Source of the DNA: Ligula intestinalis
Lineage: Eukaryota; Platyhelminthes; Cestoda; Diphyllobothriidea; Diphyllobothriidae
Direction: 5' to 3'
Length of the DNA: 64,000 nucleotides
NCBI GenBank assembly: GCA_036362985.1
Contig: JAYGXS010000001.1
Span: 53,378,185 to 53,442,184, forward strand
A model generated the notes under the pieces. It ran no database searches. It was given only the letters and a program-made list of their open reading frames with translations, and was not told the DNA's origin. Position numbers and translations under genes: made by a program. Positions within the stretch are counted from its first letter, which is position 1. The number at the start of each line of letters is the position of its first letter. Positions 15,501-18,500 of this stretch are shown here, piece by piece.

Positions 15501-18500
15501 ATTCTTCGGATCTTCTTCGGACGACGAAAAAGAATTTGTTGATCCATTTGCTATCGTCCAGTTTGCGGGAAAAGAAGTCAGTACAGCCCGTTTTCATCTT
15601 GCTCACAAGTTAACGTATTCTCCAACTGAGACTAACGCTAATAACAATCAACCTTATGTCATTTCCTTTCAGGTCAAATCCTCGGTAAAAAAGGGAACAG
15701 ATAGTCCAGAATGGTACGAGGAATTGAAGCTTGCTGTCCAGGTAATTATCAAAAAATAAAACAGAAGACTATCCTCAGGCGGGCCATGCCTGAAATTTAT
15801 TGTCATATTCATCTTACTGAGTACAACTATTATTTTTCAAGCTGAAATAGAATGCTATAGGGAAAACAGCTGACCGAAAAAGGCTATTGCTGCAATCAAG
15901 GTTAGTCGGCTGTACTTAGACTCACTACGGTCAGATAGGAAGGGGGAAAATTACGTTGGGTGATTTTCCCAACATGTTTACGTCTCAAATTCAACTCTTT
16001 CTAGTACCAATTGAACCATTAACTTCCTGCATGCCAAGTAGATGATTTTGAAACCTCCTATCTTCTTTTTATTTCAGTTCCCGTCAATGTGCGATAAAAT
16101 CATCATAACTGTTTACGACTGGTGAGTTTTATATAGCTTACCTTTACACAAATCCCCCTTTGGTTCCAAGGTCGTTTTTTCTATGCAAGCTGGTTAAGAA
16201 GAACAAAGCAGTCAGAAACAAGAGTAGACTTTTGGCACCACTGCCATGAATCTTGTTTTGAAAGAGAGCTAAATCTCAGTTTCTAAACTGTGGTTCAGTT
16301 TTTCCCTACATCATGCAGCAAGAAACAAGCGCAACTTGCGCAGAAAAAAGAGTTAGAAAGAATCCCGGGCACCAATGTTATCAGAATTCACCGAATTGTT
16401 TTTTCGGCCTTTCATTAATCGACTGTGATTGAATTCAAATTATTCAGATAGATAGGAGGCTGGCAAAAATCAATCGATCGGAATTTTGTCGTCACTTAAC
16501 TCATGCTGTTCTAATCTTCTGAAACCTTTAGAGGAGCTCCATAGCCACAATGCCCGGGACACAGTATCGGCACCGTAAAACTAAATGTTTCTGATTGAAT
16601 CCCGATTGCGTTAGCATAATAATAAGAGATTAGCTTACACCGTCCTGCTAACACTGCGATTTGGGGGAAAAAAGGAATTTTCGTCAAAATCGTTAAAAAT
16701 GCTGGTATCAAGAAATCGCAGGTAGTTTGCAGTATTTTTCGATGAACAGAGGGGTTCGGAAAAGCGATTCTGAATGTTGGCTTGCAATAGTGAAGCTGTA
16801 ATCTATTCTTCTATTTGTCACCAAAAGCGATTTTCACGCGCCCAAGCGTACGGCTTTGCGCCACTGACGTCGTCAAGAATTCCGGTAACCTACGAATTGT
16901 CCGGAAATAGAAGAACATCAAGATACCTTGTTGCCTTGGCTACGCGTGGTACCCAGAATCAAGGCGCAGCAACTTTTATGCAATTGCTTTGTATAACTCA
17001 TTATAGCTTTTCTGTTAACGTCTAATACAGGGACAAAATATCGAAAAATGACCCCATTGCAAGCGCATTCATCAACGTCAATGAGGTTTCCGCACTTCGA
17101 GAAGGCGAAGACGGTTAGTTGCTACACCGCTTTTTCAGCGCTGTCGTCTCACCGCATCTAACCCGGCTCATCGTTTCCTCTGCACCGTGTACTTTCACAC
17201 AACACAGTCTTGTGTAACATGCTCAATAACCCTGCGTTTTTCAGCTTTGATCCGCACTAACGTTCTGCCGATGAAATGTCTAAAACGCCAAATTTTCAGT
17301 GTGGTTTTTCAACGCACACACAAAAAAGCTGTTGCTTCCAAGCATAAGTGTTTACCACCAAAAAAAGCTGAATACGGGAATAGAGTTGATTTCCGCCAAA
17401 TGAAAGTACGCATAGATAGACTGAATTCAACCAAAAGTTCCTTGGATTGCACGAATGACGTTGATTTGCGTTAAACGATTTCGCAGGTAATATTTCATTC
17501 TTTGTAATACAGGGACCAAACTTCAGCCGATGACCCAATTGGACGATATTGCCTTAAGCTGAATGAAATCTGCGTCCATGGACACGTTTCTGGTAGGAGG
17601 ATGTAATTTGGGAATGGGGTTACTCGTTTTCGGAAAGGAAATCATTTTGTGCTTTCAAATTTCGCACGCTTCGATGCATGCACGCACCCCCTGTTTTGAT
17701 GCACTTTGGCTGAAGCTGTACAGCTATCCGTGTTTGCATGCTATACGCATCCACTTACAAAAGGCACCTCCTCATGCTTTTAAAGATCCGTCCTTTTAAG
17801 TTTAAAAATTGTAAATCGAATAAGTTTCTGCAGGCTCATGCGCACTACTTTTAGCCTAGCATATTGAAGGCCACAAATATACGAGGGAGGCCAAGGTATA
17901 TTACACTGGCGTGCCTCTTAAAGTGCCTTTCGTGAAAAAAGGCTCTAGACCTAATCCAAAAACTAATTATCCTGGAACTGCGACCCTAGCCAGTAAACTT
18001 ATCCATTCCAAGTTTGACTGTATCCTAAATAGTTACAGTTTTAACCGCACCGACCTCATTCGCAGGAGAATGGGTCTTGATAAACGACAAGAAAAGGTTA
18101 GAACGAGATACCCTACGCAAGATCCTTTAGCATTGTAAAGTGTTGCGCACAGACACATGGAAAACGTGATAGCCTCTTGCAGCTCACTTGGCTTCATCCT
18201 TTAGTCCTGCACTAAATCCAGGGAAGGGAGGCCCGGGAGTTCAGCTTGAAGCCTTCCTCAATCGAGTATTTTAAGCACAAGATCTACACTTTAGGCACGA
18301 TCTCATCTCCTATCGTCTTCTTACAGCGAACACGTCATAAATGACTATCTTTAGTGTCCTTTTGTGGGCCGATCACAACACAAGTATTAATTACTCTTTG
18401 GTATGTGATTACCTGCGCGGGCTCTAGCTCCATGGCTCCAGAAGTAAACAAAAGTATGGGTTTACGATTGACAATCATAATGGAGTAGTAAAGTGCGGTG

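Follow-up and report, generated by a model that had tools for sequence, protein, structure and literature searches.

Ferlins act in calcium-triggered membrane repair and fusion, and the share of each of their C2 domains in this work is still being worked out. A 64,000-nucleotide stretch of the genome of the tapeworm Ligula intestinalis (referred to as the window, with positions counted from its first letter) raises the question of whether a single ferlin gene can exchange part of calcium-binding loop 3 of its C2C domain by choosing between two neighboring exons, and of what such a choice would change in the protein. Our preferred reading, to which we assign a probability of roughly 0.7, is that the two exons, referred to as 9a and 9b, stem from an old tandem exon duplication and are used in a mutually exclusive manner that tunes the contact of C2C with the membrane. 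A natural exon pair that keeps the calcium ligands of C2C and swaps its membrane tip would amount to a ready-made separation-of-function experiment.

A nearly complete ferlin gene in the window

The window contains nearly the whole of a ferlin gene. Searches by tblastn with cestode ferlins (P0001, P0003, P0008, and P0011) recognized it on the forward strand from 4280 to 47544, reaching from the region before C2B to the transmembrane exon, and a search of the animal's own genome (644 Mb in 2377 contigs) located an N-terminal exon match about 3 kb upstream of the window, at C1:53375211-53375351. As in DysF-type ferlins, one gene encodes C2B, FerI, C2C, FerA, DysF, C2D to C2G, and a C-terminal transmembrane segment, a domain assignment based on colinear tblastn matches to cestode ferlins, on matches of C2C to PDB sequences, and on the Pfam domains of homologues. 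Dysferlin and myoferlin are among the PDB sequences matched by C2C. The closest protein over C2C is a predicted protein of Dibothriocephalus latus (97% identity), and the substitutions that separate the two are spread across most of the matched exons, which are 87 to 100% identical.

Several other elements were seen in passing. At its 3' end, the ferlin gene has a segment with the transmembrane exon and downstream sequence (47440-48490), of which two more copies follow, at 48879-49814 and 52508-53411, with 71 to 77% identity. A reverse-transcriptase-like frame in 179-1147, with a weak RVT_1 match at 149-457 below the cutoff, has an inverted copy toward the far end of the window (54529-55481, 74% identity). 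Inside a ferlin intron, 37983-38501 holds a frame with a weak GIY-YIG match, also below the cutoff, which we take to be perhaps a Penelope-like element.

A Schistocephalus ferlin query against the Ligula genome returned the window gene and three weaker matches on C3, so the genome would seem to have at least two ferlin genes. In the second ferlin (C3; L013, about 7334-7600), viewed with a motif filter in three forward frames over 25.5 kb, C2C loop 3 lies within one open stretch, KDWDTLKDEEIATHIIDLKQI; there is no intron at DW|D, and the loop itself differs (KDWDTLKDEEIATH).

Two exons for one position in C2C loop 3

The architecture of the exon pair can be read directly from the forward strand. 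Loop 1 of C2C, with the conserved aspartate of its DPF motif (FVDPF), is encoded by an exon at 15470-15576 and is followed by an exon at 15673-15741 that ends in phase 0, both placed by tblastn with the D. latus protein (P0001) and by their junctions. Exon 8 (16078-16121, 44 nt) ends two bases into the tryptophan codon of calcium loop 3 (TAC GAC TG|gtgagt). Exon 9a (17031-17113, 83 nt) encodes the tip of loop 3, the strand that comes next, and the segment beyond it, and its product is identical to D. latus P0001 at 28 of 28 residues. Beyond an intron of 399 nt (17114-17512) lies exon 9b (17513-17592, 80 nt), identified by spliced translation and homology search, which takes the same position and phases as 9a. 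Exon 10 (19350-19567; tblastn and junctions) is the common 3' partner of both. No third copy of exon 9 was found between exons 8 and 10 in a search of scored AG...GT segments.

An earlier note on this DNA had described a pair of interchangeable exons for loop 3 of the ferlin C2C domain, and our spliced translations and junctions confirm its coordinates and phases as well as the acceptor context that it had claimed to be common to the two exons (both read taatacag|ggac). Exons 9a and 9b are each entered in phase 2 and left in phase 1, have AG/GT sites, and keep an open frame, and the spliced products 8+9a+10 and 8+9b+10 both translate openly. Joining 9a and 9b (163 nt) brings a stop after 15 shifted codons, within 9b, and skipping both exons leads to a stop in exon 10. 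Because early stops arise with both exons or with neither, mutually exclusive use is favored, in line with the earlier argument from the frame shift on double inclusion. Under such use, each mature mRNA would carry one exon, 9a or 9b, and given the early stops read from the sequence, RNAs with both or neither would presumably undergo nonsense-mediated decay or yield a shortened protein.

Judged by published criteria for mutually exclusive exons (PMC3228551), 9a and 9b are about equal in length (83 versus 80 nt) and exceed the minimum of 15 residues, and their splice sites, shared frame, and lack of stops are those of such a pair. Their similarity, calculated with BLOSUM62 and gap costs following the available text of PMC3228551, is 0.165 of the self score, barely over the threshold of 15%. 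RNA pairing that might enforce exclusivity was looked for between exons 8 and 10; the repeats in 16122-19349 are short, and in this one sequence none tellingly links 9a and 9b.

Homology of exon 9b to exon 9a

We compared 9b with all in-phase, stop-free AG...GT segments of 60 to 110 nt on both strands of the window, each scored against 9a (679 segments on the forward strand, including 9a itself, and 610 on the reverse strand). With 9a excluded, 9b came out on top of the 1288 candidates with its relative BLOSUM62 score of 0.165, and the runner-up reached 0.053. A profile of 14 flatworm exon-9 cores, which included none from the window or from D. latus and left out Macrostomum and Priapulus, placed 9b second only to 9a among 45,580 stop-free 20-mers, with a score of 14.6 bits against a mean of -37.1 (SD, 8.2). 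With a profile made from four trematode 9b cores, 9b ranked third, behind C2F loop 3 of the same gene; the loop form of C2F and C2G in this protein, to which 9b had been likened earlier, proved correct when we checked both sequences. The candidate and profile rankings together reject a chance open frame as the origin of 9b, and the homology of the two exons is plain. When the flanks of 27 internal exons were searched for exon copies (336 candidates), a positive score was obtained for exon 9 only, in a search where nine long exons had no candidate at all and some outer boundaries are approximate.

Calcium ligands and the membrane tip

A cryo-EM structure of human myoferlin provides a map for the two exons. 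In the available text of PMC12264198, loop 3 of myoferlin C2C binds three calcium ions through D444, the backbone of W445, D446, T449, and D452, and contacts the bilayer with R447, L448, and K450. Mapped on myoferlin, the exon pair falls in loop 3 of C2C, where it had been placed before. The 9a core reads D-W-D-K-I-S-K-N-D and the 9b core D-W-D-Q-T-S-A-D-D; the first ligand aspartate and the tryptophan are encoded by exon 8 and the remaining three (D, S, D) by 9a or 9b. The five ligand positions are thus D, W, D, S, D in either isoform, with serine in place of the threonine T449 in both. Counterparts of myoferlin D444, D446, T449, D452, and the loop-1 residue D396 (in VDPF) are predicted for both isoforms, in a mapping that covered these five residues. 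Since the ligand positions are kept in both versions, both isoforms should bind calcium.

This mapping does not support the earlier claim of weaker calcium binding for 9a and of the canonical calcium-binding form for 9b, as the loop-3 ligand positions are filled in both. An N-D pair or a missing glycine is not a workable mark of weak calcium binding: myoferlin itself has N-D with the glycine, and its C2C binds calcium; the 9a-type exons of Spirometra and Schistosoma haematobium carry the glycine; and 3 of 13 9a-type rows have D-D.

The membrane-contact positions differ in all three places, with K/I/K in 9a and Q/T/A in 9b at the positions of R447/L448/K450, and one asparagine of 9a is an aspartate in 9b. 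As far as contacts can be predicted, the tip chemistry of myoferlin appears to be retained in 9a and lost in 9b. We extended the comparison to 13 9a-type and 5 9b-type rows, among them the rows of the window itself and rows that are closely related. At the L448 position, every one of the 13 9a-type rows has I, L, V, or M, and none of the 5 9b-type rows does. The R447 position is basic in 13/13 versus 4/5 rows (including all four trematode 9b rows), and the K450 position is basic in 6/13 versus 1/5. Neither R447 nor K450 distinguishes the two types, so the one change shared by all 9b rows is that the large hydrophobic residue at the tip is lost. At the T449 position, four trematode 9a-type cores have glycine and four trematode 9b-type cores have serine or threonine, so ligand chemistry may also change there. 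An AlphaFold model of the S. japonicum protein P0010 (mean pLDDT, 66.1) places, with moderate confidence, a strand just before the exon and a loop, a strand, and a short turn inside it.

In the mechanism that we infer for the use of 9b in mRNA, for its regulation, and for the direction of the biochemical effect, exon 9 would supply the outer half of loop 3 in C2C together with the following strand and the next segment. With 9a, the tip would be basic-hydrophobic-basic (K, I, K), and with 9b it would be polar-polar-small (Q, T, A). The 9a form would insert into and grip acidic membranes, like vertebrate myoferlin and dysferlin, and the 9b form would keep its calcium binding but insert more weakly, perhaps with a raised calcium threshold. 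Residues F234 and I367 of synaptotagmin 1 (Syt1) presumably correspond in motif to the Ile/Thr position of 9a and 9b. Because alanine at four hydrophobic loop tips of Syt1 (M173, F234, V304, and I367; the 4A mutant) abolishes membrane penetration according to the available text of PMC8294851, and because the tip residues change here, 9b would be expected to weaken insertion. An effect on apparent calcium affinity is possible through this weaker membrane binding. The importance of C2C is suggested by otoferlin D515-517A mice, in which vesicle replenishment is altered (reported in the available part of PMC12526402).

Exon 9 types in other flatworms

Two exon-9 types occur among predicted flatworm proteins. 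The 9a type is present in S. haematobium, Trichobilharzia, Calicophoron, Paragonimus westermani, copy A of P. heterotremus, and seven cestode proteins, which are all of the compared cestode proteins that contain exon 9 (7/7). The 9b type is present in S. japonicum, Fasciolopsis, Opisthorchis, and copy B of P. heterotremus. The P. heterotremus model P0121 consists of two ferlin copies in a row, from about residues 1 to 1980 (A, 9a-type) and 1981 to 3370 (B, 9b-type), suggesting two neighboring ferlin genes in this species. Part of the trematode 9a/9b difference is therefore paralogy, and the two-copy model rules out that all trematode 9a and 9b proteins are splice forms of one gene.

The sole comparison within one orthologous gene, which is based on gene models, is that of the schistosomes. 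S. japonicum and S. haematobium are 89% identical over 851 columns outside exon 9 and agree in 59/60 and 56/60 columns beside the exon, versus 11/27 columns inside it; exon 9 of S. japonicum matches that of Opisthorchis at 17 of 28 positions. A tree made without exon 9 joins S. japonicum with S. haematobium (0.993) and both with Trichobilharzia (1.0), and it places the schistosome proteins inside a clade with Opisthorchis, Fasciolopsis, and P. heterotremus B (0.998). The simplest reading would be one schistosome gene that has both exons, with each gene model taking one of them; gene conversion, or the loss of one exon per species, could also account for the difference. In terms of the conservation criterion for mutually exclusive exons (PMC3228551), both types are found in orthologous schistosome models, and the cestode proteins are of the 9a type. 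In the public gene model of Schistocephalus solidus (P0011), unrelated sequence stands in place of exons 8 and 9, possibly due to a predictor unable to choose between two exons.

A tree of the exon itself, with Macrostomum and Priapulus as outgroups and with Watersipora, D. latus, and P. westermani (identical to P. heterotremus A) left out, sets the window 9b apart from all 9a types (0.875) and groups it with the trematode 9b types and the outgroups. Its tie to trematode 9b is weakly supported (0.148), and its branch is long. The exon comparison also left out S. solidus P0011, for its missing exons 8 and 9, and Glandiceps, for which there was no pattern match.

Competing explanations for the exon pair

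If 9b were a relic, an old copy that has dropped out of splicing and is slowly decaying, several of its features would be as expected: its codon bias is weak (matched by 9.9% of 6919 stop-free intronic windows, versus 1.3% for 9a), the differences between 9a and 9b fall 8/7/12 by codon position over 21 codons with little third-position excess, its branch in the exon tree is long, and a search centered on 9b yielded no cestode protein with this exon (three proteins, all of the 9a type). We consider a relic unlikely in view of what 9b has kept. Its splice sites look usable: by a matrix built from other introns of the same gene, its donor scores 6.95 within a range of 1.4 to 10.3 for 25 constitutive donors (left-one-out), its acceptor scores 8.46 within a range of 1.3 to 13.9 for 26 constitutive acceptors (versus 3.32 for the 9a acceptor), and its donor sequence, CTG|gtagga, recurs as a donor at 20083. 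The frame is open, the length change is exactly one codon, and the ligand positions are kept. When neutral decay was simulated up to the 43% divergence seen here, 2.8% of 100,000 copies retained AG, GT, and an open frame, and just 0.033% also retained the similarity score and all three ligand positions encoded by the exon, by criteria set after 9b had been seen and with indels ignored, which makes the figures conservative. An imperfect natural control is found in the same gene, where the transmembrane exon copy at 52508-53411 is a remnant with stops and a frame shift in an alignment of about 71% DNA identity, whereas 9b is intact at 57%. A poison exon, mainly included beside 9a and lowering the amount of ferlin through an early stop, could explain the stop that arises within 9b when the two exons are joined, and the 399-nt gap would give space for splicing 9a to 9b. 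This role gives no reason for an open exon-9 phase, calcium ligands, and C2 similarity to persist, however, and either type serves as the sole exon 9 in schistosome gene models, making a poison exon very improbable.

Two other proposals accept the pair as real. One, which competes with the mechanism only, is that the calcium ligands rather than the membrane tip are tuned. The asparagine-to-aspartate change puts an extra charge near the calcium site, and ligand chemistry may differ in trematodes, given the contrast of glycine with serine or threonine at the T449 position; but the myoferlin loop-3 ligand positions are filled alike in 9a and 9b of the window, and the calcium-binding C2C of myoferlin has the N-D form itself, so we regard this mechanism as rather unlikely. 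The other competes only with a common old pair and holds that the cestode pair and the trematode 9a and 9b types come from separate exon duplications, which we judge to be slightly short of an even chance. It is favored by the support of just 0.148 for joining the window 9b with trematode 9b, and by a score for 9b of 14.6 with the 9a profile versus 11.8 with the smaller trematode 9b profile. It has to contend with an identical position, and identical boundaries as far as protein models show, with the D-D, the glycine after P-I or A-I, and the lost hydrophobic tip that all 9b types have, and with the separation of the window 9b from all 9a types in the exon tree (0.875). The mean similarity of the cores is also slightly in favor of trematode 9b (32.5, versus 26.2 for 9a), but a difference of this size is reached by 4806 of 20,000 shuffles.

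A bolder version of our preferred reading, exclusive use that tunes membrane contact, is that the pair forms a membrane-grip switch older than the split between tapeworms and flukes. Exon choice would turn a calcium-triggered inserting loop into a barely inserting, calcium-binding loop, by which a syncytial surface could set the engagement of a repair protein by stage or tissue. We offer this version as speculation and regard it as doubtful. A ferlin of S. japonicum, represented by a 321-residue fragment that may belong to the P0010 gene, is found mainly at the tegument (available text of PMC3688920), and given this location, isoform choice could bear on the repair of the parasite surface.

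Comparison with known splice variants of C2 proteins

Mutually exclusive exons that alter C2 domains are already known. The available part of PMC2823689 describes them for invertebrate Syt1 (snt-1 of Caenorhabditis elegans), Syt34, and arthropod Esyt2, where, as proposed for the tapeworm gene, the use of one exon to the exclusion of another changes a C2 domain in a protein of membrane fusion or membrane contact. In Syt1 it is the central portion of C2B and in Esyt2 the first C2 domain that is altered, whereas the tapeworm pair would affect a ferlin C2C, with the exon boundary inside loop 3. Ferlins are unmentioned in PMC2823689, and the string "ferlin" is absent from the main text of two alternative-splicing surveys, of S. 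japonicum and Echinococcus granulosus. Among the literature matches listed, in a search with most subscription papers outside its scope, we found no mutually exclusive exon pair described for a ferlin and nothing to contradict the same statement in the earlier note.

The ferlin isoforms described in the available portions of PMC9333456, PMC2923515, and PMC1853072, among other sources, change C2A, the linker between C2A and C2B, the beta 6-7 subdomain of C2C, or the number of domains. Exon 17 of human dysferlin resembles the tapeworm pair in that its splicing depends on the tissue and affects C2C, at the beta 6-7 subdomain, and its site, mapped from an alignment, lies just before the sequence of tapeworm exon 10. 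As far as the available text of PMC9333456 shows, it differs in that skipping of the exon shortens a subdomain remote from the calcium pocket, that no homologous exon takes its place, and that loop 3 stays untouched. Dysferlin C2A and C2Av1 offer a case in which an alternative exon changes the calcium behavior of one ferlin C2 domain (available parts of PMC9333456 and PMC2923515), although through an alternative first exon and not through an internal exclusive pair. The Drosophila ferlin misfire shows that alternative splicing of an invertebrate ferlin can be tissue specific, but its isoforms differ in how many C2 domains they have and in their membrane anchor (available text of PMC1853072). 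For the proposed change at the loop tip, the counterparts are the 4A and 4W mutants of Syt1 (available part of PMC8294851), in which hydrophobic residues at the loop tips alone alter membrane insertion and fusion pores; these mutants are engineered, concern another protein, and change four sites at once.
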